DNA of 64,000 nt from Cynocephalus volans (Eukaryota > Chordata > Mammalia > Dermoptera > Cynocephalidae). The stretch lies in NCBI RefSeq assembly GCF_027409185.1, contig NC_084462.1, positions 186,376,071 to 186,440,070 of the forward strand. Direction: 5' to 3'. A model generated the notes under the pieces. It made no database searches and had not been told where the DNA came from. It saw only the letters and a list, made by a program, of their open reading frames with translations. A program made the translations under genes and the position numbers. Positions 10,126 to 64,000 of this stretch are shown one piece after another (the stretch's first letter is position 1; every line of letters starts with the position of its first letter).

Positions 10126-10216
10126 TTCACCTCCTCCAACTGAAGGACACAGCAGAATGAAGGGTCTCAAAGCCCACTCCACATCTTCTAACCCAGGAAC
10201 ACCCACCCACTCACCC

Positions 10217-19019: not shown

Positions 19020-19208
19020 GTCTCCGGAATTGGGAGTAGGGCTGAGGTCTGGGATAGGCAGAGTTTGAGAGGGTTGGTAGGATGAGGGATACACTTTACC
19101 TGGCAGGGCAAGTTAAGCAGCAGTTGGAGTGCAAAGGAAGACAGGACATGGGCCTTCCCACTTAGTGGTTAGGGGGGTTTTAGGTTCCGGGGAAGTGTAG
19201 AATACTAA

Positions 19209-19826: not shown

Positions 19827-19831
19827 AGGTG

Positions 19832-20840: not shown

Positions 20841-21117
20841 CTGCCCCGCTGCTAGGGCTCTTAGACAGGGTGCCCGGCCTCATACAGGGGGGTCCAACTG
20901 TTTTGTTAGGTACAAGGCGGATATCTTGGACGAGACAAAAGGCGCTGTTAGGTTTTTTTACAGCGAGTATGGGAGTATTGCCTGAATGATGGGGCTTAAC
21001 CCGAGGAGGGCTGTTGTGGTTAATAGATACTGAGCCTGACAAATATATTTGGAGGGGTCTTTTAGTTTTATTTGTACAGGGGAACACTGGGCCAGAGCGG
21101 GGCTGGCTGTGTCCCAA
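20830..21117 (-). pseudogene. ERV-F-like pol: RT N-terminal remnant
   Basis: Contains NTPILAVKKPN and LVQDIRLVPNKTV, the fingers region of class I RT. It leads almost directly, around 20840-20900, into connection-domain sequence. The palm with its YxDD catalytic box is therefore missing, which implies a deletion of several hundred bases compared with a complete gene. Confidence 0.7.
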
Positions 21118-21174
21118 ACTGTGGGGTTAACAGGGTGCGTTAAGATGGGTAAGGACTTCTTTGGAAGGGTGGAC

Positions 21175-21669
21175 TTAGTAGGATCTTGGGCTTGAACTAG
21201 TGCTAGGAGGAAGGAAATAAATGGGGGAAGAGGAAGAGGACGGGGGCAAAGTAATGGAGACTTGAAGCCGTGATAGAATGTCCCGTCCCAACAAGGGGAC
21301 AGGGCATTGTGGCATGACTAGAAAGGAATGGGAGAAAACGGATTGAGTGCCTTGAAGGCAGCAGGTTAAAAGTGGGGTTTTTTGGGGAAAGATTTGTTTA
21401 CCTCCTACCCCGACTATAGGAGAGCTGCTGGAGGTTGTGGGGCCTTTATATTCCCTTAAGACTGAAAAGGTTGCTCCAGTGTCCAGGAGGAAAGATATTG
21501 GGTGGCCGTCCACAACCATGGATACCCTGGGCTCCTGCTTCATTATAGAGATGGTCGGGAAGGGCCCAAGGCTCCGTCGGTCCTCCTCAGCGAGGCCCAC
21601 CATAGGTGGTGTCCACGGTTCGGGGGTCTGTGTGGCAGTTGGTCCCTCACCCTTCGGGCAAGGGGGCAA
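21175..21669 (-). pseudogene. ERV-F-like protease
   Basis: Aspartic protease domain: FLLDTGATFSVL (active-site DTG) and PLLGRDILSRL near the C-terminus, within an open stretch between gag and RT. In a live virus it would process Gag and Pol. The frame relation to gag shows that read-through no longer works as a single unit. Confidence 0.8.
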
Positions 21670-23128
21670 TCAGATCCCCAATGTCCCTTCTTTTTGCATT
21701 TTGAACAAGAAGTGGTGGGGTCCTGGGGGTGGGGCAATCCTTTGCCCAATGCCCTTCCTTTCCACATTTAAAGCAGGCTCCAGGTGGAGGCTTAGAGGTG
21801 GAGGCTGTGGGAGGGTGCCCAGAGGGTTTGATAAGCCGGGCCAACATCTGGAAGTTGGCGTGGTCGGTCTTTTGTTTTCGACGTTCTTTTTCCTCCTCCC
21901 GATTATGAAAAACCTTGAAGGCCACTGACAGGATTTTGGTCTGAGGGGTTGCAGGACCCTGCTCTAATTTTTTAAGTTTAGTTTTAATGTCGGCATAGGA
22001 TTGGGCCAGGAAATAGGTCATAAGGACATGCCGGCCGTCTTCTGAGTTGGGGTCTAAGTTAGTGTATTGTTGAAAGGCCTGAGTTAATCTATTGAGGAAC
22101 TCGGAGGGAGTTTCCTCCTTTTTTTGGACAATTTCTTGAATTTTTTAGAAATTGACGACCTTGTGAGCCGATTATTTGAGGCCAATTATTAAGCAAGAGG
22201 CAAAACAGTCTCGAGCCTGGATTCCCTGGGCTGTGTTATAATCCCAGTTAGGTTCCTGTTCTGGGACTGCTTGGGGGCCTGGCGGGTGATTCGGATTGGT
22301 ACAATGGGTGTCAGTGGCATGGGTTTGGGCTGTATCCCAGACCCTGCAGTGTTCCTCGGGGAGGAGGGTATTGGCTAGGAGCATGAAGATGTCATGATGT
22401 GTGAGGCTGTAGGCCTGCAGGATCCATTGGAATTCTTTAATGTAGGTGGAAGGGTCGGTAGAGAAAGAGCCTAGTCTTTTTTCTGATTCTGTAAGGTCAG
22501 CTAGGGAAAAGGGAACATGGACCCTAACTGCTCCTTCAGCCCCAGCTACCTCACGTAGTGGGGCAATTGTTAAAGGTGCAGGGGGAGGTCCTCAGGAATG
22601 GGTGAAAGGGGGGCCTAGTGGGTCAGGAGTAGGTGAGGGTAAAGACGGGGGAGTGGATGGCGCAGGAGGTGCAGAAGGTGATGTGGATGACGGTGGAGGA
22701 GGAGCGGATGCCGGAGGCACTGGGGGAGGAGGAGGTCGGTAGGGTGGGGGTTCATCAGCAGGGTCGAAGGTGGAAGAATCGAGGGGTGACTGTGAAGAGG
22801 GTTTACAGGCTAAAAGGACTTGAGAGGGAGCACAGGAGGAGCAGAGGGCAGGGTTCTGAGCCAAGAGGTGAAAAGCTTCGATGTAGGGGATCTCCTTCCA
22901 TTTTTTTAGGTGCTGGCAGTAGTTAATGAGGTCTCATAGAATGTTAGGATCTAGTGTGCCCTCAGGGGACCATGTGTTTTGATTATCTAAAGGATAATAA
23001 GGCCAATCTTGTGTACAGAATTTGATGAGGAGTTTGGGCTCAATATCCGGCCTGAGGGAAACGTTGGTGAGGTTTTTCAGAAGGCATTGAAGTGGAGAGT
23101 CCCCTAGGGAGGAGGAGGAAGCACCCAT
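21543..23128 (-). pseudogene. ERV-F-like gag, broken
   Basis: Matrix begins at 23128 with MGASSSSLGDSP, a myristoylation-type start, and stops at 22934. A proline-rich stretch with the late-domain motif PPPY (DEPPPYRPPPPP, 22592-22864) follows in another frame. Capsid pieces lie near 22172-22384. Nucleocapsid has two CCHC zinc knuckles, CFKCGKEGHWAKDC and CSKCKKKGHWGSDC, in overlapping frames at 21.55-22.0 kb. Gag would build the virion core; multiple stops and frame changes disable it here. Confidence 0.8.
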
Positions 23129-24559: not shown

Positions 24560-25701
24560 CAACAGCAGCATGATGCGTCACTTGGTCATCCTATGGACCA
24601 TCTGGCGCTTGGCACATGGGGAACCAATCACCTACCAGTATAACAAACGTGGACAAAAGATTGTTGGTTATGTTATGATGTTCATCCCCCATATTTTGAG
24701 GCTGTGGCATTAAGTAACGTAACCATCCTCACCACTAACAGCACCCAGTGTGCCAGTAATTACAACAGAACCCATCCTGGTTTAACCATACAACATATGT
24801 TGGGAAAAGGATTATGTGTTGTTTTAAAGAACCCCTCCCATTGTTCCAATACCATTATCCTCAACAGCACCTGGGCTAAACCCAGCCTTGGGTGATGGTT
24901 ATGCACCAAATCAGGACTTACTGCTTGTGTGTTTAATCAATCCTTATCTCATGAAACTTGTGTATCAGTGGATAATATTCCCTGATTATTATGGCATAAA
25001 GGGGAAGAAATGTTTCAATATTGGACAAGTACCTTTCCTCACCATAGTAAAAGGGCACTAGAGGCTGCTGTTACCATTAGTACTTTAAAGGGGATTGTAG
25101 GCACTGGGGAAGGGGCTGCTGGAATAGGATATACTTACACCCACACACAAGCTTTAAGGGAGGCTATAGACATAGATCTAGATAGGCTTGAAACATCAAT
25201 TACCCATTTGCAAAAATCATTAACTTCTCTTTCCGAAGTTGTATTACAAAATAGAAGGGGATTAGACCTCCTGTGTTTACAACAGGGAGGCTTATGTGCA
25301 ACTCTCAGGGAAGAATGTTGCTTCTATGCTGATCATTCTGGAATAGTAAAAGAATCTGTGACAAAGTTTAGAGAGGGCTTGGAAAGACATAAAAGAGAAA
25401 GAGAGGCCAACGAGAGCTGGTTTCAGTCTTGGTTTAACAGTTCTCCCTGGCTTACCACCTTGATGTCTGCCTTAGCGGGCCCCTCTTAATCCTCCTCTTA
25501 GTGCTAATGTTTGGTCCTTTAATTTTTACTAAAATCATGGCTCTCATTCGACAAAATCTAGGATCCATAACTATGCTCACCCAAGTGGTAGAAAATGTGG
25601 CCCAAGAAAATTCCCCCCAAACCCTTGGGTCAATATGGCCCTCCAAAAAATCCACAGCAATCTTTAAGGGGCTCTGCTGGCTCTCCACAGTGGCTGGCTA
25701 G
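24560..25701 (+). pseudogene. ERV env with gamma-type TM, broken
   Basis: SU is fragmented by stops (short open pieces from about 24570 and at 24704-24895). TM is open from 25010 to 25489: an amphipathic stretch LEAAVTISTLKGIVGTG, the segment LQNRRGLDLLCLQQGG, the CX6CC motif CATLREECC, then ESWFQSWFNSSPW before the membrane span, where a stop interrupts. Disulfide-linked CX6CC envelopes are gamma-type. With the beta-like integrase just upstream, the arrangement matches the known type D chimera. Confidence 0.75.
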
Positions 25702-26289: not shown

Positions 26290-27175
26290 GCACGGCTGCA
26301 GATCCCACCGCTGATGTGTACCCAGAGGAGTGTAAATCATCTGTGGAAGGAACTCCCGCACCCCATGTTTATGGAGGCTATATTATAATAGCCAAGATTT
26401 GGAACCAGCATAAACGTTTGTTGACAGACGATTGGATAATGAAAATGTGGTGCATATACACAGTAAAATACTACTCAGCCATAAAGGAAAACAAACTTTT
26501 TTCATTCACAACACTGATGAGCTGGAGAATTTCATCAAAAATGAAGTAAGCCAGGCACAGAAAGAGAAATTCCACAGATTGTCACTCAGAGATGGGGGGG
26601 GAAGGAAGGAAGGAAGGGAAGAGGGAAGGAGGGAAGGAAGGAAGGAAGGAAGGAAGGAAGGAAGGAAGGAAGGAAGGAAGGAAGGAAGGAAGGAAGGAGG
26701 GAAGGAGGGTAGAAAGAAAGGAAGGAAAGAAGGAAGGAAGGAAGGAAGGAAGGAAGGAAGGAAGGAAGGAAGGAAGGAAGGAAGGAAGGAAGGAAGGAAG
26801 GAAGGAAGGAAGGAAGGAAGGAGAAACAATAATAATAATGTTAAATTTCGGACGGAGAGAACTGACCTGTGGTTACGAGAGGCAGGAAGGGGATGGGGTT
26901 TAGTGAGTGGTTGGTTCGTGGACACATGCCACCCAGATAGAAAAAAGTATGTCGTGTGGGTGCCCAGGGGAGCCAGGCCTCTGTAATTAACATTCATTTG
27001 CTGCATGTCATCTACTGGCTGGAAGAGAGGAGATAGAACGTCATCATCACAAACAAGTCATTCAGTTTTGTAACGATGAATGTGCTAATTACGCTGATGT
27101 GATCAACAGACATTGTGCACATGTATTGCTATTCAACAGTGTACCCCACAAATATGTAAAATCTAAATGTCTTAA
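26290..27175 (+). mobile_element. L1 3'-end fragment interrupted by a GGAA array
   Basis: L1 ORF2 end (ACCCAGAGGAGTGTAAATCA, GTGGTGCATATACACAGTAA, KYYSAIKENK) then 3' UTR after a large simple repeat, ending near 27170 with AAATGTCTTAAATGAATG. Degenerate. Confidence 0.8.
26594..26826 (+). repeat. Homopurine (GGAA)n array
   Basis: 233 bases of only A and G on the plus strand apart from a single T at 26710, mostly GGAA units. The lysine/glutamate/glycine-rich open frames across it, and the phenylalanine/leucine/proline ones on the opposite strand, are products of the repeat and are not genes. Confidence 0.97.
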
Positions 27176-36530: not shown

Positions 36531-36760
36531 ACTTGTTTTTACATTAATCGTTTTAAGGTAACAGAAACCACATTTTAAAGGAACCCACAAAGGAAATGAA
36601 AAAAATAATAATAAGAGTTCCTGAGAAAGACTTCTACTGAACAAGGACTGAAATGAAACCCTGTTTATCTTCTGCACCTGCTCTTCAGTGGAAATTCCGT
36701 ACTAAGTGTGCACTGAGCTCCTCCTACCGCCAAGTCCACGCCTGTCTTCCAGCAGAGGTT

Positions 36761-36799
36761 TGTTTGTATCTGGGCTTGAACTGAGTTCCCCTCACTGTA
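36761..36799 (-). other. Degenerate V-RSS, 23-bp spacer
   Basis: Heptamer TACAGTG (36793-36799; first base changed from C), a 23-bp spacer and nonamer ATACAAACA. The mutated first heptamer base should abolish cleavage. Confidence 0.75.
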
Positions 36800-37223
36800 T
36801 TTCTTGCTCAGTAGTACATGGTGGTGTCCTGGGATCTCAGGCCACTCCTAGTTAAATAAGTTTGGCTCCTGGAGGTTTCCCTCGTGATGCTGACTTGGGA
36901 TTTAAGAGTTGTGCTTCCACACACCTCATATCACACTGACCCACTCCAGTCCCCTTTCTGGAGGCTGGTGGATCCAGTGCCCATCACAGCTGGTTAAAGA
37001 GAATCAAGAAATAGTGCAAGTGAGGAACAGGTTCTGTGAGGGCCTCACCAGGCACAGCCGTGTTTCCTGCAGCTGCGACTTGGACAGGAAACCTAGGGTT
37101 AAGGAGCATCACCATCAGTCAAACACACTGGAAACCCCATGCCCAAGTCCCTTTCCTGAAGTCCCAGAGACACTCACAGCAGGGAGTGGCCACCAGGCAG
37201 AGGAGCAGCCCCACGACATCCAT
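36800..37223 (-). pseudogene. Clan II IGHV pseudogene
   Basis: Leader exon 37178-37223 reads MDVVGLLLCLVATPC and has a GTGAGT donor. The V exon, about 36800-37092 after a CCCTAG acceptor, begins FLSKSQLQETRLCLVRPSQNLFLTC, so FR1 and its Cys are recognisable as IGHV2/IGHV4-like. Stops follow in CDR1, CDR2 and FR3, and the conserved YYC Cys codon is TGA. The RSS heptamer is also mutated. It is not part of the three-block duplication. The exact subgroup is uncertain because the framework is too decayed. Confidence 0.85.
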
Positions 37224-38985: not shown

Positions 38986-39960
38986 CTAATAGTGCCATAG
39001 TTTCAGGACTGAAATTTAATTATTATTCCACTTTGAGTTGATTTTTGTGTAAGGGTGCAATTTCATTCTTTTGCATGTGGATATCCAATTTTCCCAACAA
39101 AATTCTGGAAGACATTTTGCTCTTCTCATTATGTGTTCTTGCCACCTTTGTTAAAAATCAGTTGAACATAAATGTTGGTTTTATTTCTGGGCTCTCTGGA
39201 CTATATGTCTGTATGTCTGTGTGTATGTCATCACCATACTGTTTTGATTATTTTAGCTTTATAATAGATTCTGAACCATGATTAACTCAGAGTTATCTCT
39301 GGGATGCAAAGACGGTTCAAAAGAAGCAAGTAAATAAATATGATAAATGCCATTGCAGAATGAAGGGGAAAAACCTATAATCATCTCAACAGAGGCAGAA
39401 AAAGGATTTGACATCCTTCGATATCTTTTCATAACAAAAATTTCAACAAATTAGTGATAGACATATTATCCTTCACTATATTAACGGTGATATAGGACAA
39501 TCCCACAGCTAATGACATGCTTAACAGTGAAAGTCTACGTTTGTTAAACATGATCAGAATAAGAACTTCTCTCACCACTTCCTTTCAACATAGAACTGGA
39601 AGTCTAGCCAGAACATTGAGGTAATAAAAATAAATAAATGGCATCCACTTATGAAAGGATAATAAAAACTGTATGTTTGCTGATAACATGATCTCATATA
39701 TAAAAACCGTAAAGACTCTGTCTGTTAACTGTGAGAACCAACAAACACATTTAGTAATATTGCTCATAAAAAATCAGCACATAGAAAGCAGTAGTGTTTC
39801 TATACACTAACAATAAACTATCTAAAAATAAATCAGTAAAACAATTCTATTAACAGTAGCATCAGAAAAAATAATTAAATTCCTGGGAATAAATGTAACC
39901 AAATTGCTTAAAGATTTGAATATTGAAAACTCTAAAGCATTGAAAAAAACTTGTAAGTAA
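38986..39960. mobile_element. L1 fragments in both orientations
   Basis: 38.99-39.29 kb is minus-strand L1 (CACTTTGAGTTGATTTTTGTGT, GTGGATATCCAATTTTCCC); 39.31-39.95 kb is plus-strand L1 ORF2 (AACCTATAATCATCTCAACAG, TTTGCTGATAACATGATCTCAT, the position of the FADD motif, degraded). Non-coding. Confidence 0.75.
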
Positions 39961-40040
39961 AGGGCAGACACAAAAGTGCAGATCAAGGAAGCTACAGAGC
40001 ACCTAACAGGATGAATCAAAGCAAAAGAAATGAAGCACAA

Positions 40041-40436
40041 ACACGCACATGCACACACGCACATATGTACACGTACACACACATGCACACATGCACATAT
40101 GTACACGTACACACACATGCACACACGCACATATGTACACGTACACGCACATGCACACACGCACATATGTACACGCACACACACATGCGCACACGCTCAT
40201 ATGTACACGTACACACACATGCACACACATGCACACATGCACATATGTACACGTACACACACATGCACACATGCACATATGTACACGTACACACACACAT
40301 GCACACATGCACATATGTACACGTACACACACATGCGCACCTGCACATATGTACACGTACACACACATGCACACATGCACACATGCACATATGTACACGT
40401 ACACACACATGCGCACACACATGCACACACACACAC
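40041..40436. repeat. Alternating purine-pyrimidine minisatellite
   Basis: About ten copies of a 34-46 bp unit with the core ACATATGTACACGTAC plus CACACATGCACA spacers. Purines and pyrimidines alternate throughout, apart from breaks at 40196-40198 and 40340/40341. All the long threonine/histidine/tyrosine-rich or cysteine/valine-rich frames on both strands here come from the repeat and are not genes. Confidence 0.97.
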
Positions 40437-40779
40437 TTACACACCCATGACCAAGATGTTAAGTGTTATAACATTAAATCCTCAGAACATACCTAACGTG
40501 GTCAGGCTAAGAAACTCTTACACATAAAAGAATAAAGGTAAGAATTACAGCGGATTTCTCGTAAGAATCAAAGCCAACAAAAATTGAGAGATTTGAAATG
40601 TTTAAAGTTTGGAAGCTTCAACCAACACCACCTGGGACTCTCAATTCAGCTAAATGATCCTCCAAGATGGACAGAGACCAACAACTCCTCGTATCCACCT
40701 TCCATCCAGAAAGGAATAAATATTTGATATAAATTGAATAGCACAGCAACTATAGCCAATAAGAATAGATTATATATTT
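40437..40779. other. Unassigned DNA
   Basis: No gene seen. The GAATAAAGGTAAGAATTACAG stretch and its surroundings look like degraded L1 3' sequence. Confidence 0.4.
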
Positions 40780-41994: not shown

Positions 41995-43268
41995 CTTACA
42001 GGGAAAAACCAAAACACCACATGCACCTTAGACACTATTTAAGAAGTCTCTGAAAACCTAGTCCACAGAGGAGACACAAACAAGGACACCAGAGGACATT
42101 TTATCCAGTCCGTAGCTTGCCTTGTCATCCTCTTTACAGTGACTTTACAGTGACTTTTGCAGAGACACAGTTTCTAATTAATAGCTCCAGCCTGTCAATG
42201 TTTCTTTCCTGCGTTGTGCTGTTGTCTCACCTCCATTGCATGTGGTATTTTCTCTTTTTATGAAACATTCGTAAGCCGTAGGTGCCTGCTCAGCACCACG
42301 TGAGGTCCCTACCTTCAATGATCAGCCTCATTACTGGGCCCCTCATCTGCACCTGCACAGGAGACTTGGTAAGAATTGAGCAGGGACCTTGACTCAGGGA
42401 GCTGAGTGTCTAGGGACAGATCTAGTGAGAATTTAAACAGTGGTAGACAGAGGATGGTATTAGGGCAAGTGTCCGTGATGTCTGAGGGACAGCAGAGAGT
42501 GGGCAGGGAGCAGGGCTCTGTCCAGCTGCTTCTCAATATCCTCAGGGAATCGCCCCAGGGAACCTGAGATACACAACTTAGGACACAGTTCCCAGGGCTG
42601 CTTTGAGAGGCCCCACCCAGAATGCAGCCCAGCAGGGCCCTGGTGGGAATTTCTCTCTGTGCTTGTCACCCTGAAACCTCCACAGAGAAGTGTAAGAGCT
42701 GTGTCTGGCCCCCAGGCAGCTGCTTCTCCATCCAGGACACTGGAGGATGGACAGAGAGTGGGACAAATAATGAACATCAGTGTCCATGGTGTGGATGAGG
42801 AACCAGAGGATAAACTGCCCCAGGCAGGACACGGACCCCATGGACAGATTTCCTGAGGGATGATCATAACCATGTGACAGCATGTGTGCTTGACTGAGGA
42901 AAACGTCCATTTAGGGACACTGTGCGCCTGGACTGAGCTAACCTTTAGGGAAAAATATTGTTGATCACATGAAGATAAGAATCTTTACAATGATTTGTGT
43001 GTCAGGAAAGAGAACAGGTCATGTTCACACCTGAGAAATGAAAGGTCCCAGTGAGTGGAAACATCTTATCTACAAATGAGGAAAGTTACTTCACTCTGTG
43101 TTGTCTGCAGTGAGAACATGGGAATTAGACTCACAAACAACAAAGCAGGAAATGACCCTGAGGGACATCTGGGAGTCAGCAGAGCAGAGGAAACCTCAGA
43201 TCCCAAGAGGAACCCCCATCCCCTCTCTGCACCTGCTCCATGGGGCACAGGAGCTGGGTGGGCCTTGA
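41995..43268. other. Block B 3' flank of V gene
   Basis: No gene. Shared with A (2.05-2.88 kb) and C (61.4-62.16 kb). Confidence 0.7.
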
Positions 43269-43281
43269 GCGCTCCCTGCAG
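43269..43281 (-). promoter_or_regulatory. CTCF-like motif with one core change
   Basis: The plus strand reads GCGCTCCCTGCAG. In V sense AGGGAGCGC, a G-to-A change at a normally invariant core position compared with the copy at 2881. Binding probably weakened. Confidence 0.4.
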
Positions 43282-43309
43282 CCCAGACCACTCCTGTATC
43301 CTGCAGGGA

Positions 43310-43348
43310 GGTTTGTGTCTGGGCTCACGCTGTCTTCCTGTCACTGTG
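43310..43348 (-). other. V-RSS, 23-bp spacer
   Basis: Heptamer CACAGTG (43342-43348), 23-bp spacer, nonamer ACACAAACC (43310-43318). Consensus at every key position. Confidence 0.95.
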
Positions 43349-43789
43349 TCTCTCGCACAGTAATACACGCCCGTGTCCTCATCAGTCACAGAGCTCAGCT
43401 GCAGGGAGAACTGGTTCTTGGACGTGTCTCTGGTGATGGAGGTGCGGCTCTTGACGGACGGGTTATAAGCTGTGCCTCCATCATAAGCAATTATTCCCAT
43501 CCACTCAAGGCTCTTCCCCGTGGGCTGGCGGATCCAGCTCCAGTAGTAATAACTGGTTGTGATGGAGTCACCAGAGACTGTGCAGGTGAGGGAGAGGGTC
43601 TGCGAGGGCTTCACCAGTCCTGGGCCCGACTCCTGCAGCTGCACCTCGGACAGGACACCTGGAGACAAGGAGAATCAATCACTGTCAGTCACATGCAGTC
43701 ACAACCATATCGTAGACCCATGTGTGACATCTGAGACACTCACCTTGGAGAGCTGTCACCAGGCAAAGGAGAAGACCCCACAGTCTCAT
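43349..43789 (-). CDS. IGHV: IGHV4-like variable segment, functional-looking
   Basis: Leader exon 43744-43789 reads [15 protein letters not shown], followed by a GTGAGT donor. V exon 43349-43658 follows a CTCCAG acceptor. The spliced product runs [20 protein letters not shown] through a conserved Cys in [35 protein letters not shown] and YYCAR with no stop. CDR1 is long ([10 protein letters not shown]) and CDR2 short (IAYDGGT), as in IGHV4. The leader ATG is 113 bp from an intact octamer and the RSS is consensus, so all elements needed for transcription and V(D)J joining are present. It is the best candidate in the window for an expressed V gene; usage in the repertoire cannot be judged from sequence. 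Confidence 0.96.
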
Positions 43790-43901
43790 CTTCTGTTAGG
43801 TCTCAACTCTGCCTTCCCCAGACACCTGAGCCCTGTCTGAGGACAGACCTGTGAGCTTCCACCACCCATGAGTGTACATTTACCCTGGAGCTTGAAGGAA
43901 A

Positions 43902-43909
43902 ATTTGCAT
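43902..43909 (-). promoter_or_regulatory. Ig promoter octamer
   Basis: ATGCAAAT on the minus strand, 113 bp upstream of the leader ATG at 43789. Confidence 0.9.
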
Positions 43910-46655
43910 GTGGGAGAGCTCTGTCCTTATAAGCGGTAAGGAACTGAGGTGGGACTTCTGCATTTTTGATGGGCCTATATTCTATTATTTTCTGAAAATT
44001 ACATGACATATAATTATCAGATGTGAAAGAACACTCCATAATGTGGCCCCAGATTTCTTAGCCCCGATCTACCTTCCTTCTACCTTCTCTTGTGCCTTGT
44101 CTTGGGCCCAGCCCAGCTTTTCCCACAAACTCAAGCTCTGAGTCGTGCTATTACAGTTCTGATCACAGCACAACCCCTGCTTCCTTTCCCTGCACCCTCT
44201 CCTGTCATGTGGTTCTCATCACACCTGAGAGCTTGTTACATTGTTACATGGTTGCTGTTCCACGTGTTCCAGGCCTGCCTTGTGCTCTGTCCACCATGTG
44301 ATACAAGACACAGCACATCAGAACTCACAGGGACTCTGCAAAATACAGCATCCTGTACAGTACTCAGGAAACTGATTCTCACTGTTTGGAAAAGATAAAT
44401 GGACTCTTTTAAATGCGCCTTCCCAAGGTAAATCCTGTGCTTCTAATGTGTTCGAATTTTCAACAGAAATTCAGTTCTCACCCTTATTATTTTAAACATT
44501 GATGTAATTCTTTCATTTAGTCCTACAATCACATCAGATATCCCCGCTTGTGAAAATATCAATCACAATGGTTAACATGCAAGCAGTAATAATATCCCTA
44601 ATATGAAAGTTTAAAAACACACTTCCCTTTGATGTCGCTGCATTGGGGCCCATGACAGCCACTCCATGACTGTGGTCACTGCCCTCTGAGATGCCGCCCA
44701 CCACAGAGAAAGAGGCCAGGGGCTGTGCTGGATGCTGTGCTGTGTCTACTCCTGTGAGCCCCCTCTCAGTCCCAAGAGCAGGTCCATGTCATGGAGGGAC
44801 AGCCCTTGAAGGCTCCTGAATGGATTATAAGTCAGGAGCTGCTGATGGACAATTCGGGGCTGATTCTTCAGTTCTTGTTAACTCATGAATTTTGCTGAGA
44901 TTTTACCAAAATGGTAAAAGACCTGAAAAAAGGCAAAGGAAAACAAACACACTGAAATGACAAAGCAAGTATCAGACCCAGGATAAGATGTGACATAGGT
45001 TTTGGAATTATCAGAGAGGAGATTTAAAATAACTAGGTGTATGTGCAACTCTGTTTCGGTTTGTTTCTAAACCTTCAGCTGACTATGCAGAATCCCAGCT
45101 GCCCATGTCTATTAGCCCAGGATAATTTATCAGGACGTTCTGCCTAGTGTAGCAAACACTCCCGCATCTCAGTGCAATAAAGTTTCAAGAACAAATACGT
45201 AGTGTTTGCTCATTTCTACTCTAATGTGTCCAGGAGGGAAGTTGCGGTGAGAAGAGGTGTCTGATTCATAAAGTCACTCAGGAACCCAGACTCCCACTGG
45301 TTTGAGACCCAGAACCTACAGCTTGTGGACTGATGCTTAATAGAAGACAGAAGGTGAGGGAATGATGAATTTCAGGTGGACTATTTTTTAACTGTTGTAA
45401 ATACACTTACCATGAGCTCTTCTCTGTTAACACATTGTAAGTGCACAATGCGGTATTGTTAACTGTGGGTGCAGTGCTATAGAGCAGATCCCTAGAACTT
45501 GTTCATCCTGTGTAACTGAAGCTTTGTATCTGTTAAACTTTCATATAATTATCCAGGCTGTGACTGTGTATCTGTGTACCTTTCCATTGGCTTAATTAAT
45601 CATATGGTCCTGACTTACATCAAAAGATCAAAAACGTATGTTGTCTGTCAACTCTGCATGCAAGAGGACAACAGGTGTTTGGGGGAACTGGAGGGTAACA
45701 CACTAACCATGTGTCACTTGAGTTTCTCTCTCTCTCCTGCCCCTACACACACACACACACTCGCCAGTGGTCTTTTTGGAAAATCTAACTTGAGCGATGC
45801 CTCTGATTGATGCTGAGCAATTCCTTGTAACATACACAAATGTGAAATGTGAAACTTCACAGCCCTGTTCTGAAATATGTCACCATGTAGAGGAAGAATC
45901 TCCCAAGGTACAGATTCAGCAGGACAGCCCTGTGTGTTGTGGACAGTGAATCGTCGCTGTTCCTTGTATCATAATTTTCCTGCTAGTCTCATATACATGT
46001 TGCATATTAACTTGCATTAGGAGTGTTTCTGTTTTGTGGATGGATCTATTTTTTATTTATTTAAAGAAAAAATAATATTCAAATTCATTAAGCAGGACTC
46101 TCACACCAATGAAAGGATAAAATATATTCAAAAAATGTCTTATATAGAATGTCAGAAAAGGGAGAAAAAATACTAGCAGAGAGAATTTTATTATGCTTTA
46201 AATGATACAATATTAAACACAATGACTATACAAATAATAACCATAATGAGCAGTTTTGATATGTTTAATGAATCAGTAGGCAAACCTAAACAACAGCAAA
46301 AAAATAAATTACTAAACAGCAATGGCATTGGAGACCAACAGAGAGGTGACTTGAGGTTTTATCTCATGGATTTAGGAATTATAGGGATCAAAATTCTGAG
46401 CATCACTAGACTTGGATAGGACAGAGATTTGTACGTTATTCTCTTCTGAAACACAAATATAGAAGAAAGAGAGAGAGAGAGAGAGAGACAAGGAGAGGGA
46501 AAGAGAAAACTATCACGGTGAAAAAAGGTAAAATGTTCAAGAATCAGACCTACAAGGCAAGGAAGAAAGGGGGTCATGGATTGAGAATAACCTTAGAGAT
46601 CAGAAAGCAACACACCCCATCACGTCAAAATGTGCACGTAACTGTGTTAAATTTC
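43910..46655. other. Block B intergenic DNA
   Basis: Counterpart of block A 3.52-5.80 kb; no gene. Contains a short CA array near 45748-45762 and a GA array at about 46465-46490. Confidence 0.7.
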
Positions 46656-47085
46656 TCTGCCATGAAAAGGTATGACGTTCCATCATTCACAACAACATGG
46701 ATGACCTTGGAGAAAATAATGTTGAGTGAAATAAGCCAAGCAAAAGGGAAAAAATGCCGCATGTTCTCCATCATAAGTGAGAGGTAAGAGAGAATGAAGG
46801 AAGGAAAGAAAAGCCACAGGGGTGCATTGGTCTTGCAGAGGGACAGAGCAGACCTGGGGTTGTGTAATGGGGTGGAGACAAGACGGAGGGGGAAGGACAT
46901 AAGGGATTAATTGTGTGGGGGACATGAGGAATATAACCACAATTCGTAGTAATAGGCATGCTAATAGTACTGATCTGGCCACCACATTTTGGCCACAAGT
47001 GCCGACGGTAAGCTTTGTACCCTGTGAATATTCATAACCAATAAAATAAAATAGAAAATAAAAAAAATTGAATAAAAGAAGTAAA
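46656..47085 (+). mobile_element. L1 3' end inserted in block B only
   Basis: Plus-strand L1 3' sequence (ACAACATGGATGACCTTGGAG, GGTGCATTGGTCTTGCAGAG) ending in an A-rich tail near 47070. Block A reads across the site near 5800-5820 without it. Confidence 0.8.
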
Positions 47086-48097
47086 AGGCAAAATGAGAGC
47101 TTTTATTGCAAAAAATGCATGCTTGCAGCAATATCTGCAGTGCAAGTTTGTAAGTATTTGAAGGTAAGATGTTTGGGAATGCATGACCTGAAATCAGCAA
47201 TGAAAATATTGTCAGAGAAAAGCTGACATAAAAACACGGATGTTATGACGAGGCTTTATTGAAGTTCAATTATGTCTGAAGATAATGCCCTAAACTGCAT
47301 GGCTGTGGTACTTGGTAACAAATCAATCACCATGTTACACTTTATCAGGGTCTTCCCATCAGACTTTCTAACATGGGATAATTCAATTCAATTTCAAATG
47401 TAACAGGGTCATGAGGAAACAAATGTAACAGGGTCATGAGGAAACTAGTAAAAGGTTAAAAATACTCAGCAACACTTTTAATTTCCTCTTTAATTACAAA
47501 AGTGAGATTGACACTGGTTGATTTTTTATTTGTATGTTATGTTGTCAGCCCTTGGAAGTTCACATTCCACTAGCCTGGTAAATTTAGAGCATGACTGTGT
47601 TTAAAGGAAAGGCACAAATGATTGTTTAAAAATGTTTCCACTAATACTGACCCTCAATTCAAAGGATAAACACACCCTGCTGTCCTGTGTCCAGGTTCAT
47701 AAGTAGAAAACTCAGCTCATTTGCTTATGTAATTTATTAATTTTTCCCTAAAAGTGTTTTCAGTGCAAAGTTCCTATCTCCATCGTGCTTCAGGTCTGTT
47801 CCCAAATTTTCAGGTTCAGAGATATTTGTATGTGTCCTCTGACCACTGAGGACACCAAGGATGATGGTTTTGACCAGAATACTCAGCCCGTTCCTTCTCT
47901 GTTGTCTGATTCCTGCCACCCATGGGACTGTCCACCTCAGTGCTCTGCAGCTTCTGAGGCCAGCTGGACGTCATCTGACACCAGGTGTGTGTGTTGTGAG
48001 AGGTGTCCTGGGGTCAGCAGATGCTCTGTCCTTACAGAAAAAGTGTTCTCAAGAAAGCTGCTTGATGGCTACAGACGATTTCAAGTTAATATTAGAT
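47086..48097. other. Block B intergenic DNA
   Basis: Counterpart of block A about 5.82-6.44 kb plus an extra segment at about 47.38-47.76 kb that has no evident match in A. No gene. Confidence 0.6.
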
Positions 48098-48387
48098 AAA
48101 TGTTTCTTTTAATCACAGATAAGTGAGAACATGTGGTATTTCTCTTTCTGTGCCTGACTCATTTCATGAAGCTAAAAATAAATAAATAAATACACAATTA
48201 ATCTGTGGGGAGGAGAAGACACAACAATTACAATTCCTTGTGAAGTTGTTACAACAAGTGAACAGATATGAGGTTGTTGGGAGGGGGCGAGGCAGGGGGA
48301 AGGGAGGTTTTGGTAATGGGCCTTAATAATCAATACATTGTATATTGATAAAATAAAACAAAATCCAAAAAATGTTTCTATGAATCA
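48098..48387 (+). mobile_element. Twin-primed (5'-inverted) L1 insertion with TSD
   Basis: Flanked by AAATGTTTCTTTTAATCA (48098-48115) and AAATGTTTCTATGAATCA (48370-48387), an 18-bp target-site duplication. Inside, about 50 bases of L1 3' region in inverse orientation (AAGTGAGAACATGTGGTATT) precede forward 3' UTR to an A-rich tail (TGATAAAATAAAACAAAATC). Block A has a single uninterrupted copy of the target at about 6440-6460. Confidence 0.88.
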
Positions 48388-51020
48388 GCTCTACTTGATA
48401 TAGACAAATTGGTTACTATGTTAAATCAGCACTGGTGGTGAATCTTTTCAAAGAGAGCTAATATTGCTTTGGTCATATGTAACTGGTCAACAAGATAATC
48501 CTGGGAATTTCTGAAGGTGGAACATGGCCAAGAGACAAATCTCAAGGGCTCTGGACATCTGCAGGGGGATTTTCTTCAACTTCCTTCCATTCTTCAGAGG
48601 ATTCAGAGGTGTTTTATTTAACACCTGCCTCTTTTCTCTATGTCTTGATATAATCCATTGGCAAAATGTTACAGCTCTTTCAGTTGATAAAAAGCTGCTT
48701 TATTTTGTGTTTCCAACCTGTGATATGAAAAAAATTACATAAAGTGAGCTTGTCAAAATTCTAAACACAAGAGCACACACATATGAAACTCAGTCGTGAC
48801 TAGGAATTTTTTATTGAGGATGTACCTAATTACACATAAATTACATAAATATATTCAAGGTGAACAATGGCATGAGTCTCTAGTGATTATATAAGACAAA
48901 AAATGGGCAGCCTCATTGGTGCCTTTTTATTGTTCCCATTAGGGACTTATGTCCATGTGGACACATGACACAGTTCTACTCATGGAGGCTGGAGAGATGG
49001 TCTGCTGGGGCTTTCCTGATTCTTCAGTAGGGCATTTCAGAAGAATGATCCCCTTTCTTGTATAAAACAAAATATCATCATATCTGTGTGTGACTGGAAA
49101 GTCATTCATGTCCACACTTGATAAGAGCGAACTGTGTCATGAAGCTAAATTGTGAAGCTTATTAGTGTCTAACATTGAGAAAATTAATTAACTGGATACA
49201 TGAACTGTTGAAATACCTAAGTCTGGATCCATTCTCATATGTTCTTCTTGTTTCACTACCTTGTGATTTGTGTCATTGTTTAGTCAGTTCCAGTCACCTC
49301 TGTTTACTTTCTGCTGAAACAGAGCACATAATCATCTAGAGATGTTAAGATTAAAAGGAAAATGAATAACTGACTTGAAAAATAACCTGAGTTCGAGGTG
49401 AGGTACCAATTATTTTGTTGGTAGTAATACAGGTAGAAGTTGTGAATAAATGCTATGTGCTCAAAATAATTTTATCGTATTTATGGCAATTCCGCAGATT
49501 TCTTAGATTTATTAGAGACTCACATTGAGAACCTTGAAATAATTTTTTTGTGTTTATTAATTATGCCATTATAACACAACTGGTTATTTTATTAACCAGG
49601 AATTGCTATTCCAATGTTATCTTTACATTAGACTAAGATCCTCTGCCTTATGTAAAATAACTCCAGATGAGAGAAATTATTTCACTTATTACAGCTCATA
49701 AATTAGCCAAAACAGGAATAAGCACACGTGATTTTGGAGAAGTGCACGTCGGTGAACACTTTTCAAACAAAGGGGATTCTCACATCATCCGGAAAACAAC
49801 ATTAAAATAGACAAGCTCAGGAACTTTCAGAACCGCTCCTATATCCCAATTACTTGGCTGTCCGGATGCTCTCAGGACACACACAACTCTGTTCACCTCA
49901 GTAGAACTCAGGTCATTTGCATATTCATGAGGTGGAGTATTTTATAGTTCAATAACTAGCTCGGCCTCAGAGGAGAAGACCGATGGCACATGGGCCACGC
50001 CACAGTGAGAGGCTGCGGGTCCAGGTCCTAATCCACCTTGAGGACATGCATCTCCTGCCTCACCCCTGAGCTCATAGCAGGCAGAGCTCCCCTCTCTGAG
50101 GAACAAGACCCCCCAGGACACTTGTCTCACTGTGAACCCACATCTGAGTATTATGGAGACCACCTCGATCATTTATGAGCCTGTCAGTGTCGCTATTGCT
50201 GAGCTGTTGCACTGACCCCATGCTGGCCTCACCAGGCACCAGAGCAGCCTCTGTAACTCAGAGAGAGTGACCATGAGTGTCCAGCAGGACTCATGGGTGG
50301 CTGTGAGATCTATTGGGCACTTCTGAGTTTGTTTCCCTGCACCTGTCTGGGTGACCTATGATCCCAGGCTGCTCAGTAGAAAGACCCCTGATTCTCAGAA
50401 TAACCATGGACTGTGTGATCCAGGGCTGGGTCCCTGATTATATTGACAAGAAGTTGAATGGGGCACTTCATAAACAAATGTTTTCCAAAATATTGCTTGA
50501 AAATTCTGTTTTGAATAAATCTGAATCTTGTCCCCAACTCCTCATAATAAAATGTACACAGTATTTACATAGTTACCATTCATGCACATTGGTCCTCATA
50601 TCACTAATCTATTTATGATCAACTCAGGTTCATTCATCTGCCACCATCTCTGAATCACCACTTTTCTGTCAAACACTCAGGCCAGGTAACATCACTAGAC
50701 CTGAAATCTGAATGCCCTGTTACTGCGATCAGTGTGTAACCCAAAATTCTGCACCATTTGAATTAATGAAGGCACCCCTGTACTCCAGAATTTTACTAGT
50801 GAGACACCTACGAGAACTAAAAATTCCTTCTAAATATTGCTCTCCTTGCATTATCGTTTCAGCTGAATGCTCCCAGTAAAATAAAATATTATAGGAACAT
50901 CTGCATTGCTTTAAATATTTGCATTTATGTCAGTATTTTTGAAAGATGAAGCTCCAGGCCTTGACAGCCTCTTCCCAGCCAGCTCTGCACATGCTGGAGC
51001 CTGTGCTGGGCGTGTCCTGA
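48388..51020. other. Block B distal intergenic DNA
   Basis: Counterpart of A 6.45-6.85 and 7.54-9.79 kb. Contains the orphan promoter (49915); otherwise no gene. Confidence 0.7.
49915..49932 (-). promoter_or_regulatory. Orphan IGHV1-type promoter
   Basis: Same CTCATGA-2-bp-ATGCAAAT arrangement on the minus strand as at 8675-8692, again without a V exon in reach. Confidence 0.6.
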
Positions 51021-51033
51021 GCACCCCCTGCTG
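51021..51033 (-). promoter_or_regulatory. CTCF-like motif, one core change
   Basis: The plus strand reads GCACCCCCTGCTG, i.e. AGGGGGTGC in V sense. The core C has become T, a CpG-type change compared with the block A copy. Confidence 0.35.
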
Positions 51034-51074
51034 CCCAGTGCTGGCCCTGCAGGGGAGGATCCTGTCTGGGCTCA

Positions 51075-51335
51075 GGGTGTGTTATCCTCGCAGCGTCTCT
51101 ACTGCAGTATTAAGGGTCTGTGCCACAGCTTCAGAGTTTTCTTTCAGGGACACCATATGCTTTTGTCAGCATTTCTTAAGATAGTGAATTGGTCTCACTA
51201 AACCCAAATGCTCTGTAGAGAAAAAACAAGTGAACGTTTTATAAAACTACCTGGAAGCCTGTTCCCTGGAGCTGGCAGATGCAGTGACATAGTTGACACT
51301 CACGGTGAGTCCAGAAATTCTCGGGGGGTTGGGAC
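51075..51335 (-). pseudogene. IGHV3-like V relic, block B copy
   Basis: Paralogue of the relic at 9.84-10.13 kb, with the same decayed FR2 (CCAGCTCCAGGGAACAGGC in V sense near 51260) and FR3 remnants. No frame, no RSS. Confidence 0.55.
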
Positions 51336-51444
51336 AGTCTCTTTTCTCCTTCAGGGTTATCTTGCAGATGGTCATAGCAGAAAACACCTGAGTCTACAGA
51401 ATTATGGGGCTCAGAGCCCACTCCACAGCTAATAATGCAGGTAA

Positions 51445-51445
<1 letters not shown>

Positions 51446-51504
<59 letters not shown>
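51446..51504. repeat. (CG)(CA)n microsatellite
   Basis: CGCGCGCG followed by about 25 CA units, with one T (ACATAC). Confidence 0.95.
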
Positions 51505-51799
51505 GGGCTAGTGTTAATGGTAATGGGCAGGAAATATGTACTTCTTGTCTGTATTTTACATGTAGGTAGTGCCTCTACACTGACCCTGGGCCTAGGATTG
51601 TGACTCGCTTTGTCAAACAGAACAAAAGTAAACACAATGCCAGTGTAGACTTGGGAAGTGCACACATTGTGGGATTTCCTGCTCTACCATCACACAGGAA
51701 CTCTTTAGATGCCTGTGAGAGGGGGCCAGGGTCTCCCTGAGGAGGGCCAGACATACAAAGCCATGCCCAGTCAGTGCAACCACACTGAGCACCCTGACA

Positions 51800-55700: not shown

Positions 55701-56438
55701 CTGTGAAGCTGGTGGATCCATCTGGACATGCTCTGCCATAAGTTGTGTGACTTGTTATAGGTGGCCTGGCACCACCAGCCGCATGTTCCCCTCACAAGAT
55801 GCAGGCCTGTCCTGCACTAGCGCCTGAATTGCCTGGTTACATGTCTGAAAGTCACAAGGGCTCACTTTCATAGGTAAGGAAGGTTCAGCTGACCCGCCTG
55901 TCACCTGTTCAGGCCTCCGTAGATAGATGAACACACCATATGGGCATTAGGGGACTGAGTGGGGTTGAGTTCATCGATGGACAAACCTTTATTCAAATCC
56001 ACAAGGGTCAGAGTTGTGTGTATCTGAGGTAAGGAGATCATGTATGAACAAACGGTGTTTGTCAGAGGTCAAAGAATGTGAGCTTAGAACACACAGCCAA
56101 AGGGCCTTTTTTTAGTTCAATTATTTCCAGTCAAGAATGATGAGAATCTTCCGGAAGATCTGCTTGTCATGAATGAAACATGAGTCATAGAAATTCGGTG
56201 ACGGAAAAGTCACCTTAGTGACTGCTCAAATCTCATTTTCAAAAAACATCGTCAGTTTCTCCGTCGTTAACCAAGAGAGGATGTGAGGAGTTCAAAACAC
56301 AAAGAAAAAGGCATGAAGTGTCTCAGGAGACACCTCCGACCTTGGAGAGGACACGAAACCGTTGATGTCTTCAGGAAACACCTCAGTGTCCTCTGCACCT
56401 GCCACTGCCACGAGGCCCCTGAGCTCAGTGTGTCCTGC
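55701..56438. other. 3' flank of IGHV3-like pseudogene
   Basis: No gene or recognised repeat. Confidence 0.5.
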
Positions 56439-56452
56439 GCGCCCCCTGGTGG
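56439..56452 (-). promoter_or_regulatory. Strong CTCF motif 3' of the V RSS
   Basis: The plus strand reads GCGCCCCCTGGTGG; the V sense is CCACCAGGGGGCGC, a perfect canonical CTCF core, 20 bp beyond the RSS nonamer. Confidence 0.8.
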
Positions 56453-56472
56453 TCCCGTGTGTCCCTGCAGTA

Positions 56473-56511
56473 GGTTCTTGTCTGGGCTCCCACTGACGTC
56501 CCCTCACTGTG
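56473..56511 (-). other. V-RSS, 23-bp spacer
   Basis: Heptamer CACAGTG (56505-56511), 23-bp spacer, nonamer ACAAGAACC (56473-56481). The nonamer keeps an A-rich core but departs from the ideal at two bases. Confidence 0.9.
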
Positions 56512-56973
56512 TCTCTCGCACAGTAATACGTGGCCGTGTCCTCAGCTCTCGCATTTTCAGTTTGCAGATACAGTGTGTTCTTGGCGTTTTCCCTGGAGAT
56601 GGTGAATCGGCCCTTCACGGAGTCTGCGTAGTATGTGCTACCACCACTCCAGCTAATGGCTGAGACCCACTCCAGCCCCTTCCCTGGAGCCTGGCGGACC
56701 CAGCTCATTGCATAGTCATCAAAGGTGAATCCAGAGGCGACACAGGTGAGACTCAGAGACCCCCCCCAGGCTTCACCAAGCCTCCCCCGGACTCCACCAG
56801 CTGCACCTCACACTGGACACCTGCAAACACAGAGACACCCTGGTCAAAAAACTCTCACACGAATCCACTATTTCTCCCACCCATAACCACACACATTCCC
56901 AATGTCTGTATTTCGCCTTAATATGACCTTTTAATACAGCAAGAAGGAAAACGCAGCTCAGTCCAAACTCCAT
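56512..56973 (-). pseudogene. IGHV3-like V segment, frameshifted in FR1
   Basis: Leader exon 56928-56973 reads MEFGLSCVFLLAVLK, typical of IGHV3. The donor is GTCATA, weak compared with the GTGAGT of its neighbours. V exon 56512-56820 starts [19 protein letters not shown]1 then has eight G in a row (56760-56767) where the family has six, giving a stop a few codons later. After the run the correct frame resumes: [48 protein letters not shown] and TYYCAR are all well preserved. Octamer, RSS and CTCF motif are intact. The only clear lesion is a homopolymer length change, so an assembly error must be excluded before calling it dead. Confidence 0.9.
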
Positions 56974-57097
56974 GGTGACTCGTCTGTGTTCAGTCCTGAT
57001 CACCGAGTTGGAGCACCTGGGAATCTGGGGCTGGTTCTCGTCTCCCAGAGCTGCAGGGTCAGGGCTGGGCTGCTTTACATCAGCAGGGGGAGGCCCT

Positions 57098-60337: not shown

Positions 60338-62164
60338 GATATAATTATTCTGCATTATATACGTTTTTCAAAACGTCACTCTGTTCCTCATAAATGAATA
60401 CAATTATGATTTGTCATATAAGATGATATTAACAAAAAGTGAAGGAGATATAGCGTCTCTCAGACCACACAGTGGTAAAGGATCAAGGTGTCCCTCAGAA
60501 ATCCCAAATGAGCTGAGGACAGCGGCCAGCACAGCTACTATTCAACACCTTCAATGTGGCAAGTGGAAGTAAACAAGCAGCAACCAGAAGGAAACATCAA
60601 CATAGCCCTTTTCTCCAGGGGTGACACGAGGAGTTCTGGGTTCAGGTCTCACAATAAGAAGCTTGGGTGTCATCACTCCCATCCAGAAAAAAGTAAAAAC
60701 TGAACAAAATGAAAATTGGTGACAATTCTTATATCTGTAGAAGAATTTATGTCACTGGGTGAACGGCTGTCCCCAAAAGTGAAGATGCAGCCAGGAAGAC
60801 ACAGAGGGTCATAACCTGTCTGATTAGAAACTCATGAGCAGAAACCTCTGTGGGACCCAGGACTGGGGGAGAAAAACCAGAGCTGCAGCTGAAGAATTGC
60901 TGAAGACTCAGAGCTGGGAAGTCTGAGAGTTGGGTGCAGCCCAGTGCAATGGTTTCAGGGATCCCCAAACTTTAAACTCTACCTCAGGGGCCCACCGTGT
61001 TCTCCAGGAAAATATCAGAGAAGAATCCTGATGTTCACAGCAGAGAAAGGGAGGAAGGAGCCATTCTGAAATACCCCAGAGCATGACCTTCTCTATAAGA
61101 CGCCTTGACCTTAGGAGAAGCGAGTTTAGCTGATCCTAATGGACTGCAGATTCATCAGAGCATCATTGACCTGAGAGAAGAGAAAAAATGAATCCCCTCC
61201 CCCTCCCGCAAGAGACTTGCAGTGTCCCCCAAGGCAGGGTAAAGGGAGAGGCACTTGGAAAGGTCCCACCCAGGAAACGGCTCACTAAAGGACAGAAGTC
61301 ATCCTAGGACTGTGCACTGCTTCCCTACCCCACACCTTACCCACATCCACAGGGCTTCTGTATCATGACAGAGAGAAACTAAAACATAACATGCACCTTA
61401 GACACGATTTAAGAAGTGTCCATGAAAATGTAGTCCACAGAGGAGACAAAAACAAGGACATCAGGGACATTTTATGGAGTTTGTTCTTTGTCTTGTCATC
61501 CCGTCAGGCTCTTGTCTCTGACAGACCCACCCCAAAATTCACCCAAGCAGGGCTCTGCTGTGTCTTCATCTCTGTGCTTGTCACCCTGAATCCTCCACAT
61601 GGAAATATCATAGCTATGTGTGGCCCTCAGGCATCTGCTTCTCCATCCAGGACACTGAGGAATGGACAGAGAGTGGGACAAATTCTGAACATCAATGTCC
61701 ACAGTGTAGATGAGGACCCAGAGGCTAAACTGCCCTATTGAGGATAGAGACGCCATGGGCAGGTGTCCTGTAGCATGATAATAACCACGTGGCTGTAACT
61801 GCACTTTGTATACGGAAAAATGCTGATTTAAGTACAGGGTCCTCAAGACTAATCTAAAGTTTCTGGAAAATAATACTAGATCATAACGATTTGTCTGTCA
61901 GGAAAAAAACAGGTCAAGAAAAAACCTGAGAAAGAAAAGTCCCCAGTGAAAAGAACCTTCTCATCTGCACATGAGGAAAGGTACTTCACTCTGTGCTGCC
62001 TGCAGTGAGAATGTGAGAAATTAGAGTCACAAAGAACAAAGCAGGACATGACCCTGAGGGACATCTGAGAGTCAGCAGAGCAGAGGAAACCTCAGATCCC
62101 AAGAGGAACCCATATCCCCTCTCTGCACCTGCTCCATGGGGCACAGGAGCTGGGTGGGCCTTGA
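60338..62164. other. Block C 3' flank of V pseudogene
   Basis: Counterpart of B 40.87-43.26 kb. No gene. Confidence 0.7.
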
Positions 62165-62177
62165 GCGGCCCCTGCAG
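62165..62177 (-). promoter_or_regulatory. CTCF-like motif, one core change
   Basis: The plus strand reads GCGGCCCCTGCAG; in V sense AGGGGCCGC, so one invariant G of the core is C. Confidence 0.35.
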
Positions 62178-62205
62178 CCCAGACCCCTCCTGTGTCCTGC
62201 AGGGA

Positions 62206-62244
62206 GGTTTGTGTCTGGGCTCATGCTGACTTCCTGTCAGTGTG
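62206..62244 (-). other. V-RSS with altered heptamer
   Basis: Heptamer CACACTG (62238-62244; fifth base changed), 23-bp spacer, consensus nonamer ACACAAACC. The essential CAC is kept, so weak activity is possible. Confidence 0.88.
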
Positions 62245-62682
62245 TCTCTCCCACAGTAATACACACCTGTGTCCTCATCAATCCCAGAGCTCAGCTGCAG
62301 GAAGAACTGGTTCTTGGATGTGTCTCTGGTGATGGAGGTGCGGCTCTTGAGCGATGGGTTATAACCTGTGCTTCCAGTATAAATTATGCGTCCCATCCAC
62401 TCAAAGCTCTTCCCTGTGGGCTGGCGGATCCAGTGCCAACCATAATCACTGGTGATGGAGTAACCAGAGACGGTGAACATGAGGGAGAGGGTCTGCGAGG
62501 ACTTCACCAGTCCTGGGCCTGACTACTGTAGCTGCACCTTGGAGAGGACACCTGGGGAGAAGGAGAATCAAAACTTTTCAGTCACATGCAGTCACAACCA
62601 TACCGTAGACTCATGTGTGACATCTGAGACCCTCACCTTCAGGAGCAGTCACCAGGCAAAGAAGTAGACCCCACAGTCTCAT
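62245..62682 (-). pseudogene. IGHV4-like V segment with stop in FR1
   Basis: Leader exon 62637-62682 reads [15 protein letters not shown] with a GTGAGG donor. V exon 62245-62551 follows a CCCCAG acceptor. FR1 begins VLSKVQLQ and then TAG (62523-62525) replaces the Glu codon found in the sister genes. The rest stays open: [43 protein letters not shown] and YYCGR. SLTC has become SLMF, so the first disulfide Cys is also lost. CDR1 is one codon shorter than in the other two copies. The octamer (62795-62802) is intact; the RSS heptamer is altered. Three independent lesions make this a true pseudogene, not an assembly error. Confidence 0.94.
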
Positions 62683-62794
62683 CTTCTATTTCACCTGAAC
62701 TCTGCCTTCCCCAGAGACCTGAGTCCTGTCTGAGGACAGACCTGTGAGCTTCCACATCAGAATTGTCCACATTTACTCTAGAGCTTGAAGGAAA

Positions 62795-62802
62795 ATTTGC
62801 AT
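62795..62802 (-). promoter_or_regulatory. Ig promoter octamer
   Basis: ATGCAAAT on the minus strand, 113 bp from the leader ATG at 62682; retained although the gene is broken. Confidence 0.88.
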
Positions 62803-64000
62803 GTGGGGGAGCTTTGTCCTTATAAGTGCTGAGGAACTGAGGTGGGAACCATTGTATTTTTTGAAGTGCTTATGTGTTTGTTTGTTTGTTTTTCTTGAAA
62901 TTATTACACATGTATTTATGGTATGGGTGGGAACTTGGTGAGCTACATGACATAATGTGGCCCCAGCTTTCTGAGCCCAGATCTACCTTCCTTCAACCCC
63001 TGTGTTCTGTGCTGACTGGGACCCAGACCAACTCTCCCACATAAACTCAGGCTCTGGGTCTTGCTTCTACAGTTCGGATCCCAGCACAAACCCTGGTTCT
63101 TTCCCTGGACCCTCTCCTGTGATGTGGTTTTCGTGACACCTGAGAGCTTGTTACTTGGTATATTGTTGTTCCATGAGTTCCAGGCCTGCCTTGTGTTTTC
63201 CATCCTGCCATACAAGACACAGCACATCAGAACCCACAGAGACTCTGCAGAAAATGGTGCCCAGTGCATTACTGAGGACCCTGATTCTCAATATCTGGGA
63301 AAGATAAAAATCTTAAATGCCTCCATTCCATGGTCATTCCTGTTCATTTAAAGTGTACAAAAGTTCAACATATATTCACTTGCAACCCACATTGTATAGA
63401 TTTTATTCCTTCATTTAATCCACCAAGCTTATCAGATATCAAAAAATAAAATTGATTACAATGGTTAACATGAAAGCAGTAATAACATCCTATTGCTAAA
63501 CTTTTAAAAACAAATTTTCCCTTGATGTGCACCTGTCTGTGGGCATGAGAGCCAGTCCATGTCTGTGGCATCACTCTCTGGATGACTGCCCACCACAGAG
63601 AGAGAGGCCAGGGGCCGGGCTGGACGCTGTGCTGTGCCTGCCCCTGTCTGCTCCATGTCAGTCCCAAGGAGGGACAGCCCTTCAAGAGTCCTCAATGAAT
63701 GACAAGACAGGAGCTGCTGGTGGGCAATTTGGGGATGATTCTTCAGGTCCTGTTGACTCCTACATTGTGTTGGAGTTTTATCAAAATGTTGAAAGACCTG
63801 GTGAAAGATGATGAAAAACAAACACTCTGAAATGATAAATCAAGTATTACAACCAGAATAAGATATGACACAGATTCTGGAATTATCAGAGAGGAGATTT
63901 GAAATAACTCTGTGTATGTGCATCTATGTTTAATTTTTATTCAAACCCTCAGGTGACTCTCCAGCGTCCTAGTGGCCCAGCTCTGTGTGTCCAGGAGAAC
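62803..64000. other. Block C upstream flank
   Basis: Counterpart of B 43.91-44.95 kb and A 3.52-4.5 kb; no gene seen. Confidence 0.7.

Follow-up and report, generated by a model that had tools for sequence, protein, structure and literature searches.

Do the IGHV segments of this locus carry CTCF-binding elements beside their RSSs, as mouse and human IGHV segments do, and are such elements kept by function or carried along by descent? RSS-associated CTCF sites are on record for the IGH loci of mouse and human (Ciccone et al. 2019, PMC6746451). According to this source, the distance from nonamer to core is 17–19 bp in mouse and, for most human sites, 19 or 48 bp, functional 7183/Q52 genes of mouse have a site and nonfunctional ones typically have none, CTCF binding to the mouse sites is seen in gel shifts and also by ChIP-chip, and VH-region CTCF sites are numerous in chimpanzee and rabbit as well (PMC6746451). 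The RSS-associated elements of mouse act as obstacles to extrusion past the RAG-bound centre and increase the use of the adjoining V (PMC7930373, PMC10293834, PMC8167033, PMC11153149). Deletion of the element of VH5-2 (VH81X) lowered its rearrangement 50-fold (PMC10293834); VH5-1, a rarely used segment with a poor site, became highly used with a functional site (PMC7930373, PMC8167033, PMC11153149) and, once given an element, was the most used V (PMC7930373, PMC11153149). Human variants that are associated with gene usage were found enriched in CTCF-bound elements.

The window, i.e. the whole stretch of 64 kb analysed here, was searched with a V-unit profile that was built from four V exons and their RSSs, with the CTCF part left out. 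At a cut-off of E < 0.01 the profile recovered seven units, all on the minus strand, and nothing else; the next match had an E of 0.25. A strict RSS pattern gave no match in the window, and the RSSs were located by a scored search instead. The following features were obtained:

3268-2922, minus strand: IGHV4-like unit by profile
2961-3268, minus strand: IGHV4-like V exon with open frame (V4 2960)
2922-2960, minus strand: 23-RSS of V4 2960
9833-10053, minus strand: V relic (profile match 10053-9833) with TGCTGTG at the heptamer position (relic 9)
36762-37089, minus strand: V relic (profile match 37089-36762) with stop codons and TACAGTG at the heptamer position (relic 36)
43656-43310, minus strand: IGHV4-like unit by profile
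43349-43656, minus strand: IGHV4-like V exon with open frame (V4 43348)
43310-43348, minus strand: 23-RSS of V4 43348
51058-51316, minus strand: V relic (profile match 51316-51058) with CGCTGCG at the heptamer position (relic 51)
56818-56473, minus strand: IGHV3-like unit by profile
56512-56818, minus strand: IGHV3-like V exon whose reading frame is shifted at 56760-56767, in a run of eight C (plus strand)
56473-56511, minus strand: 23-RSS of the V3 unit (CACAGTG, 23 bp, ACAAGAACC)
62549-62206, minus strand: IGHV4-like unit by profile
62245-62549, minus strand: IGHV4-like V exon (V4 62244), interrupted by a stop in FR1 and lacking a cysteine
62206-62244, minus strand: RSS of V4 62244, heptamer CACACTG

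The V families, which we take to belong to clans II and III, are in different states of preservation. V4 2960 and V4 43348 have open exons and octamers, and their leaders, by eye, carry splice signals; the frameshift in the V3 exon could reflect a pseudogene or an assembly error, and the CAC of the heptamer is gone in all three relics. Among PDB chains matched in one stretch only, a llama Fab scored highest with the V4 exon at 43348 (4zs7, 177.7 bits; a chain named human 4-61 had 159.5), which gives the locus a camelid-like look as far as this one gene family goes. In PDB the V3 exon matched nanobody constructs as well as antibodies that were of different origin or had none stated, and it does not discriminate.

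CTCF motifs were scored with counts taken to be those of the matrix MA0139.1; all motif counts refer to the 64-kb window alone. The highest score in the window was found beside the V3 unit:

56437-56455, minus strand: CTCF motif of the V3 unit, GGACCACCAGGGGGCGCGC, 21.9 bits

The p-value of this match was 2.4e-8, corresponding to 0.003 expected matches by calculation in the window, and 3 of 200 block shuffles contained a score at least as high (mean 0.015). The motif starts 17 bp beyond the nonamer that closes the RSS at 56473-56511, which equals 18 bp to the core as used by Ciccone et al. It has no mismatch to the human IGH consensus ACCACCAGGGGGCG (PMC6746451) and one to the mouse IGH consensus GACCAGCAGGGGGC. 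The 14-mer CCACCAGGGGGCGC, on which the sequence-only reading was based, was recovered on the minus strand at 56439-56452, 20 bp from the RSS at 56473-56511, and is the sole exact match in the window.

A site at the homologous (aligned) place was present at the other six units as well, so that all seven have one (four good, three weak), and all seven point in the V-sense direction (minus strand):

2879-2897, minus strand: CTCF-like motif of V4 2960, TGGGCTGCAGGGGGCGCTC, 18.3 bits
9794-9812, minus strand: CTCF-like motif of relic 9, 16.2 bits
36715-36733, minus strand: weak CTCF-like motif at the homologous place of relic 36, 9.1 bits
43267-43285, minus strand: damaged CTCF-like motif of V4 43348, GGGAGCG in a G run, 11.75 bits
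51019-51037, minus strand: CTCF-like motif of relic 51, 17.5 bits
62163-62181, minus strand: damaged CTCF-like motif of V4 62244, GGGGCCG, 11.74 bits

The five paralogous sites listed before (2881, 9796, 43269, 51021 and 62165) are thus present on the same strand. Their description as lying in the same place was right for the aligned position and the orientation, but the spacing from nonamer to core varies: V3 has 18 bp, relics 9 and 51 have 20 bp, and the three V4 copies have 25 bp. The weak site at 36715-36733 beside relic 36, with a spacing of 28 bp, was absent from that list. Sites other than that of V3 have changes in the 5' half of the motif. The 3' ten-mer CAGGGGGCGC is identical in V3, V4 2960 and relic 9; the cores at 2881 and 9796, which had been called intact, are so in this 3' half only and have three mismatches to the 14-mer. 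The sites at 2883, 9798 and 51023 each have three mismatches to the mouse IGH consensus, and those of two of the three V4 copies are damaged. With the published limit of at most two mismatches to the mouse/human IGH consensus, the V3 site alone (1 of 7) is retained. From the sequences, the site at 56437 would be expected to be the strongest, followed by those at 2879, 51019 and 9794; those at 43267, 62163 and 36715 are probably weak or dead.

The excess over chance depends on how the motif is counted. The matrix scan yielded four sites of at least 16 bits, against a mean of 0.39 in block shuffles, and none of 200 shuffles reached four; these four top matches of the window are all beside V units and in one orientation. 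At cut-offs of 11.7 and 13 bits, the window totals were ordinary and were equalled in 24 and 19 of 200 shuffles, respectively. With at most one mismatch, the ten-mer CAGGGGGCGC gave 8 matches (1.55 expected; 0 of 100 shuffles reached 8), six of which are beside V units. The mouse IGH consensus GACCAGCAGGGGGC, with at most three mismatches, gave 14 (4.58 expected; 0 of 100 shuffles), only four of them V-adjacent. No significant excess in the window was seen with the 14-mer CCACCAGGGGGCGC (at most three mismatches; 5 matches versus 2.77 expected, equalled in 13 of 100 shuffles), the general consensus CCASYAGRKGGCRS (at most two; 15 versus 11.56, equalled in 18 of 100) or the human IGH consensus ACCACCAGGGGGCG (at most two; the V3 site only, with at least one match in 22 of 100). 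The signal is in the high scores at the V-adjacent place and not in the number of motifs. A pattern search for relatives returned 57 matches in genome contigs and 20 in viral contigs, none of which were confirmed. A CTCF-like match on the plus strand at 57077-57095 (13.0 bits, fifth-best), near the V3 octamer at 57105, was excluded from the system on account of its opposite orientation and of the about one such score expected by chance.

These properties were compared with those of the known sites. The V3 site resembles the sites of Ciccone et al. in its fixed place past the nonamer (18 bp, versus 17–19 in mouse and 19 in human), its identity to the human IGH consensus and the single orientation (PMC6746451). 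The V families would, by homology, be those of clans II and III. The spacings of 25 bp in V4 and 20 bp in the relics, in contrast, are outside the mouse range of 17–19 bp and the usual human values of 19 or 48 bp (PMC6746451). Good motifs are found here on relics and on a frameshifted V, while nonfunctional 7183/Q52 genes of mouse typically have none (PMC6746451). As in mouse VH81X (VH5-2), VH2-2 and VH5-1, strong and defective sites lie beside similar RSSs, in an orientation that would converge with 3' elements (PMC7930373, PMC10293834, PMC8167033, PMC11153149). CTCF binding has been demonstrated for the mouse sites (PMC6746451) and their function by experiments in which a site was deleted, inverted or gained (PMC7930373, PMC10293834, PMC8167033, PMC11153149), whereas the present sites are known from sequence alone. 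The assignment to the RSS-adjacent class made earlier agrees with the sequence, position and V-sense orientation of the sites and with the match of the V3 site to the human consensus (PMC6746451), but just one of the seven is within the published mismatch limit.

The units have been multiplied by segmental duplication. Positions 2056-10580 and 42447-51797 are piecewise-matching copies of one block with a V4 segment and a relic. The V4 part occurs a third time, at 61516-63999; the identity of the matching pieces is ∼71–81%. The V4 copies diverge by 17–20% over ∼2 kb and their motifs differ at 1, 1 and 2 of 19 positions, which ordinary 19-column windows equal in 34%, 21% and 49% of cases. A difference of 1/19 is ordinary even near the exon, since sequence identity among the V4 copies amounts to 91% and 89% there over ∼700 bp. 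For relics 9 and 51, with an overall divergence of 20.6%, the motif differs at 4/19 positions and 64% of the windows do equally well. No excess conservation of the motif over its flanks was found in the V4 copies or the relics by this comparison of 19-column windows (∼2 kb around V4). The V3 and V4 units align through the CTCF site and beyond, and their sites are probably homologous. By these alignments, descent accounts for the shared motifs and constraint is not demonstrated by the flank comparison; the motif can be called conserved in place in the sense of descent, and conservation beyond it is not supported, as its divergence equals that of the flanks. The RSSs at 2922-2960 and 43310-43348 are identical over 39 bases, although the divergence around them is 9% within 700 bp and 17% within 2 kb; the identity would reflect either selection or gene conversion.

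We consider it probable that the sites are RSS-associated CTCF-binding elements of IGHV that were inherited from a common V3/V4 ancestor and multiplied by segmental duplication. This is suggested by the best match of the window, 17 bp from an RSS and equal to the human IGH consensus; by the site at the aligned position of all seven units, found with a profile free of CTCF; by the four scores of at least 16 bits (0.39 in shuffles, 0/200); and by the V3/V4 alignment through the site, together with the binding and deletion data of mouse and the usage variants of human. What was observed in the window is the motif sequence, its place and orientation, its spread over seven units, the duplication and a graded decay. 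CTCF binding, cohesin stalling and an effect on V use would be expected by analogy with mouse: CTCF bound at a V-sense motif would stall cohesin that reels V chromatin past the DJH recombination centre, and the stalled cohesin would hold the neighbouring 23-RSS before RAG, so that it is used more. Motifs in V sense would be convergent with 3' elements, following the principle given in PMC7930373.

The small number of sites within the published mismatch limit and the lack of conservation beyond the flanks argue against putative elements. The best sites are, moreover, not on the best genes: the strongest adjoins the frameshifted V3, two good ones adjoin relics, and the open V4 43348 has a damaged one. 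The sites could instead have been functional in the ancestor and now be carried unselected in the duplicated V units, with at most the V3 site still of importance. The equal divergence of motif and flanks in V4 copies and relics and the damage in two of three V4 sites would fit such passive inheritance. In a neutral simulation, which used hypothetical ancestors and is indicative only, a V4 site fell to 11.8 bits or less in 20% of the runs at 5% divergence and in 42% at 10%, and both relics stayed at 16.1 bits or more in 6% of the runs as the mean over 16 ancestors and in 24% for the best one. However, several good sites have survived a long divergence, with CAGGGGGCGC unaltered in V3, V4 2960 and relic 9, and working elements in mouse occupy the same place (PMC7930373, PMC10293834, PMC11153149); we regard passive inheritance as rather unlikely.

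More doubtful still is an uncoupling of the CTCF elements from V-gene function, in which elements on relics that lack a working heptamer would persist as scanning anchors, an open V4 would do without one, and the 25-bp spacing would mean that RSS and CTCF need not keep a fixed helical phase. That the motifs are chance G-rich sequence, or sites of another protein that merely resemble those of CTCF, would agree with the loose consensus scans (CCACCAGGGGGCGC, CCASYAGRKGGCRS), which gave about the expected numbers of matches. It is highly improbable in view of the four top scores, all V-adjacent and in the same orientation, and of the CTCF binding at the equivalent place in mouse (PMC6746451).

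Putative CTCF-binding elements of common V3/V4 descent would extend a known arrangement (RSS-associated CTCF elements: PMC6746451; VH81X and VH5-1 work) to the IGH locus of another mammal. Novel are the species itself, a V4 spacing of 25 bp, dead relics with good motifs and the V4 pair with identical RSSs; our search found no paper on CTCF with camelid or with cattle IGHV, most subscription journals being outside its scope. The side-by-side occurrence of intact and decayed versions had been put forward as a natural test of RAG scanning. An equivalent test has already been done with mouse VH5-1 (PMC7930373, PMC8167033, PMC11153149), but V4 2960 and V4 43348 are a useful pair: their 39-bp RSSs are identical, both have octamers and open frames, and their sites score 18.3 and 11.75 bits, which offers a natural comparison for the RAG-scanning model. 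If the frameshift of V3 56511 is true, its joins would be nonproductive, and the readout would be free of antigen selection.

Elsewhere in the window, open-frame runs at 17901-22591 (minus strand) and 24986-25489 (plus strand) appear endogenous-retroviral-like by eye, and an open frame at 147-458 (plus strand) is like a retroviral integrase fragment by eye. Long low-complexity tandem repeats, visible as repetitive open frames, are present at 26550-26903 and 39957-40496.
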